Shown: positions 29,611 to 38,454 of the stretch, piece after piece
How the letters are laid out: each line of letters begins with the position of its first letter
How positions within the stretch are numbered: the first letter of the stretch is position 1
Assembly (NCBI GenBank): GCA_022782265.1
Contig: JALFOM010000032.1
Location: 1-56,633 of the forward strand
Direction: 5' to 3'
From: Clostridiales bacterium
GTDB lineage: Bacteria > Bacillota > Clostridia > Oscillospirales > Oscillospiraceae
DNA length: 56,633 nucleotides
Made by a program: the position numbers and the translations under genes
Notes under the pieces: model-generated
Seen by the model: only the letters and a program-made list of their open reading frames with translations
Told to the model about the DNA's origin: nothing
Databases searched by the model: none

Positions 29611-30852
29611 ATGAGCTACGACAACATCAGACAGCAGGACAGAGAGGTATACGACGCCATGATGCGGGAGCTGCGCCGGCAGCAGGACCATATCGAGCTT
29701 ATCGCCTCCGAGAACTTTGTCAGCCCCGCCGTGATGGAGGCCATGGGCAGCCATCTGACCAATAAATATGCTGAGGGCTACCCCGGCGCCCGCTACTACG
29801 GCGGCTGTGAATATGTGGATGAAATCGAAAATCTGGCCATCGACCGGGCCAAGGAGCTGTTCGGCGCCGAGCACGCCAATGTCCAGCCCCACTCCGGCTC
29901 CCAGGCCAATATGGCCGTGTACCTGGCCCTGCTTCAGCCCGGCGACACCATCCTGGGCATGAACCTGGACCACGGCGGACACCTGACCCACGGCTCCAAG
30001 GCCTCCATCTCCGGCAAGTACTTCAACGCCTGCTTCTACGGCGTGGACCAGGAGACCGAGCGGATTGACTACGACCAGGTGCTGCAGCGGGCCCAGGAGT
30101 GCAGGCCCAAGATCATTATCGCCGGAGCCAGCGCCTATCCCCGTTTTATTGACTTTAAGCGGATGCGGGAGATCGCTGATGAAGTAGGGGCATACCTGAT
30201 GGTGGATATGGCCCATATCGCGGGCCTTGTGGCCGCAGGCGTTCACCCCAGCCCGGTGCCCTATGCCCATGTGGTCACCACCACCACCCACAAGACCCTG
30301 CGGGGCCCCCGGGGTGCGCTGATCCTCTGCAAGGAGGAGCTTCGTAAGAAGATCAACAGCGCCGTGTTCCCCGGCACCCAGGGCGGGCCGCTGATGCACA
30401 TCATCGCCGGCAAGGCCGTGTGCTTCAAGGAGGCGCTCAGCGATGAGTTTAAGGCCTACCAGACCCAGGTGGTGAAAAACGCCGCCGCCATGGCCGACGA
30501 GTTTACCCGTGAGGGCGTGCGGCTGGTCTCCGGCGGAACGGACAACCACCTGATGCTGGCCGACGTGATGAGCATGGGCAAGACCGGTATGGAGGTTCAG
30601 GAGCTGCTGGACCGGGCCAACATCACCGCCAACAAGAACACCATCCCCTTTGAGACCCAGTCGGTGAAGCTGACCTCCGGTATGCGCTTCGGCACCCCCG
30701 CCAGCACCACCAGGGGCATGAAGGAGGAGGAGATGCGCAAGGTCGCCTCCCTCATCGTCCGGCTGCTCCGTGAAGGGGACGAGGCCGTGCCGCAGGTCAA
30801 GGAGCAGGTCATCGAGCTCTGCCGGAGATTCCCGCTGTACCCTGAGCTGTGA
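29611..30852 (+). CDS. glyA: Serine hydroxymethyltransferase
   Basis: 413 residues from the ATG at 29611 (ACGGAGG upstream); a longer in-frame reading from 29518 translates the structured leader and is rejected. Family signatures: [37 protein letters not shown] and [13 protein letters not shown] with the PLP-binding Lys. The enzyme interconverts serine and glycine with tetrahydrofolate and supplies one-carbon units. Its last codon and stop (GTGA) overlap the start of a transposase gene, an unusual partner for a housekeeping gene. Confidence 0.97.
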
Positions 30853-31415
30853 ATGAGCGGCCGGTTAGAAAGTCTGTCCGGCTGAAATGCTTCGATTATG
30901 CCCAGAACGGAGCCTATTTTGTGACCGTTTGTGTGCAGGATAAACGTTGCCTGCTGGGCGATGCTGCAGGAAAAAACGGCGCTGGGCAGATGGTGGAGCG
31001 ATGGCTCCATGAGATAGAGAACAAATTCTCCGGGGTGGCATTGGATTATTACGCGGTGATGCCAAACCACCTGCATATGATCCTTTTTCTGCCTGGGGAC
31101 ACGGGCGGCCACGCAGGGCCGCCCCTACGGCCAAACCAAAGCAGAACTGTAGGGGCCGCCCTGTGTGGCGGCCCGGATAATATGGGCAGTCCAGCACCGT
31201 CCCTGTCCATGGTCATGGATTGGTTCAAAACCATGAGTACCAATGCGTATATTCGGGGCGTAAAGGCAGGGGACTATCCAAGGTTTGAAAAACGGCTCTG
31301 GCAGCGGAATTATTATGAACATGTGATTCGCTGCGAGACGGAGCTGTACGAGGTGCGAAAATATATTGAGGAAAACCCGCTGAAATGGCGGGAGGACGAA
31401 TTGTATATGGCATAA
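30849..31415 (+). CDS. REP-associated tyrosine transposase (RAYT, IS200/Y1-like) with internal REP pair
   Basis: 188 residues starting at the GTG that overlaps the glyA stop by 4 bp. HUH motif MPNHLHMIL (H74, H76), a C-terminal helix with the candidate nucleophile Tyr ([23 protein letters not shown]) and [13 protein letters not shown] are typical of RAYT proteins, single-copy domesticated relatives of IS200 transposases that process REP palindromes. Residues 85-109 do not belong to the family: they are translated from two inverted REP units (31102-31129, 31148-31175) and sit in a loop between conserved blocks, in frame. The protein may still be active. Confidence 0.85.
31102..31175. repeat. 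Inverted REP pair inside the RAYT gene
   Basis: Left unit runs from CGGGCGGCC to CCCCTACG; the right unit is its reverse complement (about 25 of 29 positions), separated by 18 bp. Each unit is itself a GC-rich partial palindrome. Confidence 0.8.
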
Positions 31416-31416
31416 A

Positions 31417-31446
31417 AATATCCCGGCCATTCGTGGCCGGGATATT
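31417..31446 (+). terminator. Terminator of glyA-RAYT
   Basis: 13-bp perfect stem AATATCCCGGCCA / TGGCCGGGATATT with a TTCG tetraloop, then TATTA. Confidence 0.88.
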
Positions 31447-31472
31447 ATTACATTTGGGCTTATACTAGACTC

Positions 31473-31615
31473 CTATAAAAAGTAGACAAAGTCTACTTTT
31501 TATAGCGCGCCAGCGCGTCGGAGTCTGCATGAGACATCTTCTGCACTTACAGTGCAGAAGGGCGACGCTTCAAGCGGCGCCTTTTCGATAAAAAGTGTCT
31601 GCTTTTTATCGAAAA
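31473..31615. repeat. Second intergenic hairpin array
   Basis: Successive hairpins: 15-bp arms with AAA loop (31473-31505), CGCGC-CA-GCGCG (31506-31517), 10-bp arms CTTCTGCACT / AGTGCAGAAG (31538-31560), an imperfect GC hairpin (31561-31580) and 14-bp AT-rich arms (31582-31615). AGTCTGCATGAGACA at 31522 matches AGTCTGCGTGAGCCA at 28207, linking it to the array after the CNNM genes. Confidence 0.75.
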
Positions 31616-31621
31616 ATAGTA

Positions 31622-31993
31622 TTACAGCTCCGCGATAACTTCGCACTCCAGCAGCACATCCTTGGGCAGCCTTGCCACCTCCACGCAGGAGCGGGCGGGG
31701 TAGGGCTCGGTGAAATACTGGGCGTAGATGGCGTTGATGGCGGCAAAGTCGTCCATGTGCTTGATAAACAGGGTGGTCTTTACCGTTTTGGAGATATCCG
31801 TTCCGGCGGCCTCCAGCAGCGCCGCGATGTTTTTGAACACCTGGTTTGCCTGGCCCTCCAGACCGATGGCAAGCTCTCCCGTCTCCGGGATGATGGGGAT
31901 CTGCCCCGAGGCGTACACCAGACCGTTCACGATCCGAGCCTGGGAATAGGGGCCGATGGCCGCAGGGGCCTTATCCGTCTTGACAACCTTCAT
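31622..31993 (-). CDS. ridA: RidA family enamine/imine deaminase
   Basis: 123 residues, typical RidA (YjgF/YER057c). VVKTDKAPAAIGPYSQA at the start, YASGQIPI, and PARSCVEVARLP with the conserved Arg plus the final ECEVIAEL are family marks. The trimeric enzyme hydrolyses reactive 2-aminoacrylate and 2-aminocrotonate released by PLP enzymes. It is 15 bp downstream of the threonine ammonia-lyase gene, which makes exactly those intermediates, so pairing in one transcript is logical. Confidence 0.95.
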   Translation of the reverse strand: MKVVKTDKAPAAIGPYSQARIVNGLVYASGQIPIIPETGELAIGLEGQANQVFKNIAALLEAAGTDISKTVKTTLFIKHMDDFAAINAIYAQYFTEPYPARSCVEVARLPKDVLLECEVIAEL

Positions 31994-36629: not shown

Positions 36630-38454
36630 GCATGAGGGGCATGTGCGGGTCGGGGAGAGGCCCGTCATCGCCCTGGCGGGAATGCCCAATGTGGGCAAGA
36701 GCACCCTCTTTAACGCCCTCACCGGGCTGCGGAGGCACACCGGCAACTGGACCGGCAAAACCGTGGGCGTAGGGCTGGGGCGATGCCGGGGGCAGGATTG
36801 GATCATTGCCGACCTGCCCGGTACATATTCCCTAATGGGGCGCTCCCGGGAGGAGCGCATCGCCGGGGAATTTTTGCGCCAGGGCAGGGCCAGACTCACC
36901 GTGGTGGTCTGCGACGGGAGCTGCCTTGTCCGTGGCCTGGCTTTGAGCCTGCAGGTGATGGCCGCGGGGACGCCGGTGCTGGTCTGCGTGAATCTGCTGG
37001 ACGAGGCGCGGCGAAAGGGCATAGAGATCGACCTGAAAAGGCTGGAAGAATTGCTGGGCGTGCCGGTCATCGGCATGGTGGCCAGAAAACGAAAAAGCCG
37101 GAAGCGTTTTGTTCAAGCCGTAGGGGCGACCCTTGCGGCCGCCCGTGACACCGGGAGAGCAGATAATACGGGCGGGGCCATTGACGAGGAAACGGCCTAT
37201 GCCCGGGCGGAGGAGCTTTGCCGTCAGGTGGTGAAGCAGAGCGGCGATCACCCGCCCTGGGGGCGGCTGGATCGGCTGCTCACCGGACGTTTTACCGGAG
37301 GGGCCGTAATGCTTCTCATGCTCCTTTGCCTATTCTGGCTGACGGTGAAGGGCGCAAACTACCCCTCAGCGCTGCTCTCCCGGCTGCTCTTTTCCCTGGA
37401 GGCCCCCATGAGCCGGGGGCTTGCCGCCCTGGGCGCGCCGGAATGGCTCAACGGTCTGCTCTGTCAGGGGGCCTGGCGTACCCTGGCCTGGGTGGTGGCC
37501 GTCATGCTGCCGCCCATGGCCATCTTTTTCCCCCTGTTTTCCCTGCTGGAGGAGCTGGGCTATCTGCCAAGGGCGGCTTTCAACCTGGACCGACCCTTTG
37601 CCGCCTGCGGAAGCTGCGGCAAGCAGGCGCTGTGCATGTGCATGGGCCTGGGCTGCAACGCCGCCGGGGTGGTGGGCTGCCGCATTATCGAGACCCGCCG
37701 GGAGCGGCTGATAGCCGTGCTGACCAACAGCTTCACCCCCTGCAACGGCCGCTTTCCCACACTGATCGCCCTGACCGGGATCTTCTTCGCCTCCGGCGGA
37801 CTGGGGCAGGCGGCGGTGATGACCGGGCTGATTCTCTTCTCCGCCGGGGTGACCCTGGCGGTGACAAAGCTTTTGTCGGTGACGCTTCTGCGGGGTGAGC
37901 CCTCCCCCTTCGTGCTGGAGCTGCCCTCCTGGCGGCCGCCCCGCATCTCTCAGGTGCTGCTGCGCTCCCTGCTGGACCGCACTCTCTCCGTGCTGGGTCG
38001 GGCGGCGGCAGTGGCGGCCCCGGCGGGGGCATTACTCTGGTGTCTGGCCAATATCCGGGTGGGGGAGGGGAGTCTTTTGACCCACATGGCGGCGGCGCTG
38101 GAGCCTCTGGGGTGTTTCCTGGGTCTGGACGGGGCCATTTTGCTGGGCTTCATCCTGGGCCTGCCCGCCAATGAGATCGTGCTGCCGGTGATCATCATGA
38201 TCTATACCGCCGGGGGCAGTCTGGCGGAGATCGGGGATACTGCCGCCTTAGGGGCGCTGCTGGCCCAAAAGGGCTGGACGGCGGTGACGGCGGCGTGTGT
38301 TATGCTCTTTTCCCTGCTGCACTGGCCCTGCTCCACCACCCTTTTGACCATAAAAAAAGAGACCGGCAGCTTGGGCTGGACGGTCCTGGGGGCGGTATTG
38401 CCCACGGCGGTGGGAATCGTCATTTGTGCGCTTGTTGGGATGATTTGCCGGTGA
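36619..38454 (+). CDS. feoB: FeoB ferrous iron transporter
   Basis: 611 residues. The G domain is complete: G1 GMPNVGKS (21-28), TGNWTGKTVG, G3 DLPG (65-68), G4 NLLD (125-128). The membrane part carries the two conserved gates (FAACGSCGKQALCMCMGLGCNAAGVVGCRI and FTPCNGRFPT). It imports Fe2+ with FeoA. At residues ~168-186 the frame runs through a REP unit at 37120-37144 and a partial mate, inserting AVGATLAAARDTGRADN between the G domain and its helical domain. It also lacks the long C-terminal extension of E. coli FeoB. Confidence 0.92.
   Translation: MRFEHEGHVRVGERPVIALAGMPNVGKSTLFNALTGLRRHTGNWTGKTVGVGLGRCRGQDWIIADLPGTYSLMGRSREERIAGEFLRQGRARLTVVVCDGSCLVRGLALSLQVMAAGTPVLVCVNLLDEARRKGIEIDLKRLEELLGVPVIGMVARKRKSRKRFVQAVGATLAAARDTGRADNTGGAIDEETAYARAEELCRQVVKQSGDHPPWGRLDRLLTGRFTGGAVMLLMLLCLFWLTVKGANYPSALLSRLLFSLEAPMSRGLAALGAPEWLNGLLCQGAWRTLAWVVAVMLPPMAIFFPLFSLLEELGYLPRAAFNLDRPFAACGSCGKQALCMCMGLGCNAAGVVGCRIIETRRERLIAVLTNSFTPCNGRFPTLIALTGIFFASGGLGQAAVMTGLILFSAGVTLAVTKLLSVTLLRGEPSPFVLELPSWRPPRISQVLLRSLLDRTLSVLGRAAAVAAPAGALLWCLANIRVGEGSLLTHMAAALEPLGCFLGLDGAILLGFILGLPANEIVLPVIIMIYTAGGSLAEIGDTAALGALLAQKGWTAVTAACVMLFSLLHWPCSTTLLTIKKETGSLGWTVLGAVLPTAVGIVICALVGMICR
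37120..37175. repeat. REP unit inside feoB
   Basis: The unit at 37120-37144 is, but for one base, the reverse complement of the unit at 38459-38483. A short mate ACGGGCGG at 37168-37175 faces CCGCCCGT at 37139-37146. The insert is in frame. Confidence 0.75.

Follow-up and report, generated by a model that had tools for sequence, protein, structure and literature searches.

Here we describe a locus of a Clostridiales bacterium (Oscillospiraceae) at which a RAYT (TnpA_REP) gene overlaps the preceding gene, glyA, and carries two inverted REP units within its own reading frame. The window is the whole stretch of DNA that was analysed, 56,633 nt of one contig (JALFOM010000032.1, here C147) from a 2.28-Mb draft genome that is 82% complete. 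The features of the locus, in coordinates of the window, are the following.

29611-30852, plus strand: glyA, from the ORF listing; its orthologue in G119 is about 95% and that in G012 90% identical to it in DNA
30849-31415, plus strand: RAYT/TnpA_REP gene, 188 aa (PF01797, NF047646, profile match to 4er8 and Foldseek)
30972-30985, plus strand: direct repeat, copy 1, at a deletion junction of G012
31068-31076, plus strand: HUH codons H74-L75-H76, from an alignment of 48 sequences
31103-31128, minus strand: inverted REP unit (unit 1) with its GTAG end at 31128, a match to the family pattern with 0 mismatches
31149-31174, plus strand: REP unit 2, GTAG end at 31149, 0 mismatches to the family pattern
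31288-31301, plus strand: direct repeat, copy 2, 93% identical, at the same G012 deletion junction
31362-31364, plus strand: presumed catalytic tyrosine codon, Y172 in YIEENP, an invariant alignment column
31413-31450, plus strand: inverted repeat 3' of the RAYT gene, terminator-like in sequence (17-nt arms, 94% complementary, 4 nt apart)

The upstream frame (29611-30852) is one that we take, from its sequence, to be the serine hydroxymethyltransferase gene glyA. Its stop codon (TGA, 30850-30852) and the GTG start codon of the RAYT gene form a GTGA overlap, as the first-pass annotation of this DNA had reported, and an in-frame stop at 30843-30845 leaves no RAYT start further upstream; the same overlap is found in two sister genomes (G012 and G119). 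The annotated feature had been given an end at 31446, a position that falls within the downstream inverted repeat, and this end is corrected to 31415, where the ORF stops. Of 106 RAYTs, 8 start in an xTGA overlap with a preceding open frame that is 120 codons or longer, a count from which we claim no preference of RAYTs for stop codons as landing sites. A second pair of RAYTs starting on the stop of the upstream frame (ATGA) was seen at loci L002 (contig C53 of genome G000) and L044 (contig C31 of G012); both also carry REPs before and after the HUH codons, and the frame upstream of them resembles what we presume to be a deaminase gene. Between the inverted repeat and the next gene of the window lies a 170-bp segment with strong palindromes (31451-31620), which is absent at the orthologous place in G119 and has no other copies among the RAYT loci compared.

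The identity of the protein as a RAYT transposase is borne out by family models, by a profile match to a known structure and by its fold. The match to PF01797 exceeds the cut-off of that model; the score for NF047646 (REP_Tyr_transpos) is 63.9 bits, under the curated cut-off of 80, and this model is matched at E <= 0.001 by 48/48 aligned sequences, the window protein included. PDB entry 4er8, which shows a RAYT in complex with a REP hairpin, is matched by profile (E 2.8e-10) and is the best PDB match of the predicted structure in Foldseek (E 3.6e-7, TM 0.53 by query length); mean pLDDT of the predicted structure is 84.2, with 120/188 residues at 90 or above. Both the HUH and the tyrosine region are intact, as had been claimed: the motifs N73-H74-L75-H76 and Y172-I173-x-x-N176-P177 are present and conserved across the 48 aligned sequences, with no variation at H74, Y172, I173, N176 or P177 and almost none at N73 and H76. 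Y172 is presumed to be catalytic, as in the family. Over the last 38 codons, the window gene and its counterpart in G119 differ by five synonymous changes and one other, which suggests selection on the protein. An IS200/IS605 insertion sequence was considered and rejected, as the genome holds no second near-identical copy (other RAYT matches are at 38-51% identity) and model NF033573 scores 22.8 bits, well short of its cut-off of 55.

The REP pair occupies 31103-31174, i.e. 72 bp or 24 codons, between codons 76 (HUH) and 172 (Tyr), and consists of two inverted 26-nt units with their GTAG ends pointing inward across a 20-nt spacer. This confirms the earlier claim that residues 85-109 are translated from two in-frame REP units. 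As single-stranded DNA, positions 31095-31180 fold at -32.1 kcal/mol (z = -4.69; 0/200 shuffles as good), and an Rfam search of 30700-31700 gave four matches, all under their gathering scores. The earlier placement of the pair in a loop agrees with the predicted structure, in which 20 of residues 86-111 have pLDDT below 50 and form a putatively disordered loop between the HUH-bearing strand (74-81) and a helix (119-139). Some homologues are without an insert at this position. The annotation had named one finding as contrary to its reading, namely the same 25 residues encoded by non-palindromic DNA, and this was not found in the homologues examined, whose loops have either no detected hairpin or other palindromic REPs.

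In-frame REPs within tnpA_REP genes of subclass 2.4, generally between HuH and Y and in a peripheral variable region, are already in print (Quentin et al. 2018; PMC6006769), so that the window gene is a member of a described kind: it shares the HUH/Tyr protein and an in-frame REP insertion between HuH and Y. The motifs printed for that subclass (NH[IFV]H, WQ, YIxNNP) compare with NHLH, WQ and YIEENP in the window protein, two of the three being off by one residue. Unlike what is described for the subclass, the window gene overlaps glyA and is not flanked by REPs of its family, and its clostridial relatives have a second REP site before HUH that goes unmentioned in the consulted part of that paper. 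With REPINs/BIMEs and REPtrons the locus has in common inverted REP pairs dispersed alongside a RAYT gene (PMC3116915, PMC8266576), whereas here the pair lies inside the gene with the GTAG ends inward. REPs in frame in other genes have also been described, and likened to the Rickettsia palindromic elements (PMC3733652); these are likewise short, often dimeric palindromes inserted in frame in genes that look functional, with REPs coding for 20-30 residues, but their hosts are repair, replication and other genes, and here the host gene codes for the enzyme that presumably moves REPs. We regard it as likely, with good confidence, that the window gene is a subclass 2.4-like RAYT (RAYT group 4) overlapping glyA, in the loop of which an in-frame copy of a mobile REP dimer has survived.

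A scan of 39 selected genus genomes with the family pattern (at most 3 mismatches, with a control pattern alongside) yielded 15 units in the window's genome, 47 in G119 and 5 in G012 and none in the other 36, the control giving 0 in all 39; the view that the two units are dispersed REPs is upheld by this count. A first REP pattern, which had recovered one unit and one in its control, was replaced, as its fixed positions misfit this family. Among the 39 genomes the family is present in exactly the three that have the 5' end of the glyA-RAYT gene, and a DNA search with the whole pair against 102 genus genomes matched four, the same three and, with a short match, G090. The 15 units of the window's genome form four head-to-head dimers, including the one in the RAYT gene, as well as one pair in opposite order and five singles, and the spacers of 11 head-to-head dimers (four in the window's genome and seven in G119) measure 20-21 or 27-28 nt. 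Ten open frames overlapping other units were scanned for Pfam domains; eight had none and two had one that did not span the REP. This is weak evidence that the other units are extragenic. Of this family, contig C147 holds only the two in-gene units, none flanking the RAYT gene; because flanking REPs are common and not universal in print, the identification as a RAYT stands, and the name REPtron does not. Some 6 kb from the RAYT gene, a single GTAG-tagged REP of the GACCCTTGCGG type was seen at 37117-37147 (1 mismatch), a type that counts 3 copies in the window's genome and 33 in G119.

In-gene hairpins were then surveyed in 106 distinct RAYT stretches from loci L001-L136, 13 of them being excluded because they were incomplete or did not have the motifs. 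At least one GT[AG]G hairpin was detected in 81 of the remaining 93 RAYT ORFs, compared with 9-15 after codon shuffling (ten trials). A stricter scan of 111 RAYTs was positive for 38/42 ORFs from the G-numbered genomes (the genus and its order) and for 58/69 from named genomes, against 11-13/42 and 7-14/69 in same-size windows of the same loci (five trials). As the loci were chosen by similarity to the window or G119 protein, best matches only, these rates apply to the kin of the window protein and not to all RAYTs. The relatives within the genus and order mostly carry hairpins on both sides of HUH (34/42; only before in 3, none in 4), the window gene being the single one among them with hairpins only after HUH; the named relatives mostly have the later site only (47/69; both in 9, earlier only in 2, none in 11). 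A REP before and an inverted REP after the HUH codons occur in 46/111 RAYTs, the earlier site starting 38-48 codons before HUH in 45/46 genes and the later ending 18-26 codons past the HUH start in 46/46. No description of this arrangement was found in the literature searched, which did not extend to the supplement of PMC6006769, where in-gene REPs are shown.

In 33 genes the two sites agree at 92% of 26 positions within a gene and at 56% between genes, and the mean was reached in 0/10,000 re-pairings; this is the fairer of two tests, in genes that are related to each other. In the second test, outside the shared GTAGGGGC start and with each of 10 types represented by a single gene, agreement was 92% vs 35% (0/20,000), a contrast that is overstated because the types were defined by dissimilarity. 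The own partner site was best or tied best in only 18/33 genes, because many genes share REP types. These sequence comparisons speak for more than chance survival of the paired sites in the relatives. An account by plain survivorship assigns the insertions no role: REPs would land at random, and only those in floppy loops of dispensable genes would be seen. The predicted disorder of the loop fits such an account, as do the homologues with no detected hairpin (11/69 and 4/42) and the possibility, raised by Quentin et al. (PMC6006769), that the region has little impact on activity. Yet RAYT ORFs hold hairpins far oftener than the control windows of their own loci, and chance landing does not predict agreement between paired sites unless the copies are recent or homogenised; we consider the account possible, at somewhat below an even chance.

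Alternatively, label and enzyme may co-evolve, in that in-gene REPs would be kept through their linkage to the enzyme recognising them, and be inherited and transferred along with it. Besides the agreement of sites within genes, the distribution of REPs across the 39 chosen genus genomes favours this account. Of these, 20 have a RAYT match and 19 do not, and at least one of five REP types is present in 19/20 of the former and 3/19 of the latter (Fisher p = 4e-7, in-gene units counted). The sole RAYT-positive genome without any of the five types, G015, has a RAYT (L039) that carries no in-gene hairpin. With in-gene units excluded, further copies remain in 5/5 genomes for the GACGCCC type and in 5/6 for the GGCTATCAGCC type; the genome counts above take in such units, however, and one in-gene type of G006 has no copy elsewhere in its genome, which tells against the account, as does the low share of genes whose own partner is the best match. 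We hold it as a tentative proposal, to which the sister genomes at the glyA locus are also relevant.

When the first 253 bases of the RAYT gene were compared with 102 genus genomes, three genomes matched strongly (the window's own, G012 and G119), and two matches that were short and weak came from G027 and G087. In G012 (L128), an orthologous glyA with the same stop/start overlap is followed by a RAYT remnant with a broken frame, from which the stretch matching HUH and the REP loop is deleted, the junction lying at the direct repeat of about 14 nt that occurs twice in the window. In G119 (L081, L155), glyA is followed, across the same overlap, by an open RAYT of 213 aa. Its first 30 codons and a 30-codon run near its end are each identical to the window at 86/90 nt, whereas the aligned middle agrees at 138/279 nt (49%) with the window and at 187/309 (61%) with the second RAYT of G012. 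A tree whose input included the gene ends shared by the window and G119 placed the window gene beside L061 (91) inside a 50-row set that spans many phyla (96) and joined the G119 gene to the second G012 RAYT (99) in the clostridial half; by plain identity, the nearest row to the window is the G119 gene (60%), as expected of a mosaic. By sequence, the G119 gene is a mosaic with a core from a different RAYT lineage. Window-type sequence continues beyond the left junction in the remnant, and for this reason the window type probably came first and the G119 type arose by exchange. An exchange mediated by REPs was considered as the cause and judged less likely, as the two breakpoints, near residues 31 and 148, coincide with conserved protein motifs and not with REP sites.

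The mosaic rests on one contig, L081 and contig C28 of G119 being equal in length (27284), and the assemblies are drafts, several of them well under 90% complete, which makes absences weak. That the mosaic or the window insert could be a joining mistake is also suggested by the difficulty of assembling REP-rich genes; we judge this very improbable, because the mosaic has an uninterrupted frame of 213 aa and flanks at about 94% identity on both sides, so that two precise joins would be needed, and because window-type sequence beyond the left junction is also present in the remnant, in a third assembly.

The exchanged core carries a different in-gene pair, an iREP-REP dimer of its own that lies in frame before HUH. 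Its two unit types count 33 and 7 copies in G119 and 3 and 3 in the window's genome, as co-evolution of label and enzyme would have it, and a dimer of these types is also present on contig C122 of the window's genome. A further iREP-REP dimer of the same types was seen about 1.3 kb upstream of the G119 RAYT, near the start of glyA (contig C28, 24062-24132). Against co-evolution, G119 holds more window-family units than the window's genome. A window-type core was not found in the G119 assembly (81% complete), so that the number of REPs and the enzyme core need not go together, which weighs against the preferred reading of the window gene; the 47 window-family units also count against a simple exchange of specificity. 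A bolder form of the idea is that RAYT genes of this kind are self-labelled, the in-gene pair being the label of the gene's own enzyme and changing in step with its specificity; in the clostridial genes, the HUH codons would lie between a REP and an inverted REP, and the gene itself would be a REPIN-like unit. This is rather unlikely as things stand.

The TnpA_REP enzymes of E. coli and S. maltophilia recognise single-stranded REPs and not the complement, depend on GTAG to varying degrees and cut at CT near the hairpin, recognition in the test tube having been studied for groups 2 and 3 only (PMC8266576). By analogy, the window enzyme would bind single-stranded REPs of its family that have GTAG at their foot, and would cut and rejoin DNA close to them. 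Each strand of the gene would offer one REP, making the gene one resident site among others. The in-gene dimer may have arrived as a mobile REP copy and survived since its 72 bp are whole codons and its loop lies outside the fold; that it still matches the genomic family may mean that it is recent, or that the same activity homogenises the copies. The overlap with glyA, the one observation in favour of the joint translation that the annotation proposed, would couple expression of the two genes. The presence of a target-like dimer inside the gene could also point to feedback, as the annotation had suggested, the enzyme limiting its own level by binding or cutting the dimer, or an mRNA hairpin slowing its synthesis, and as RNA the dimer folds at -60.5 kcal/mol (a single value without a shuffle control). 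The enzymes studied, however, act on single-stranded DNA (PMC8266576), which arises at any dispersed copy too, and we think such control improbable. The surviving copy of a mobile dimer in the loop of a RAYT remains the preferred reading.

On the sequence comparisons made here, two features appear to go further than the in-frame REPs already known, namely the agreement of the two sites that flank HUH and the occurrence of the glyA-RAYT locus as a remnant and as a mosaic. If RAYT genes of this kind were indeed self-labelled, the gene of an enzyme would reveal its target, and the glyA mosaic would represent a specificity swap that took place in nature. A comparison is at hand at the glyA locus, where two cores with different internal REP pairs occur at the same place and between the same protein ends, alongside a dead copy. 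The relatives suggest that the repeats within a gene change together, so that the fit between enzyme and target can be put to the test; should the cognate substrate prove to be the in-gene pair, sequence alone would suffice to list pairs of enzyme and target for testing.
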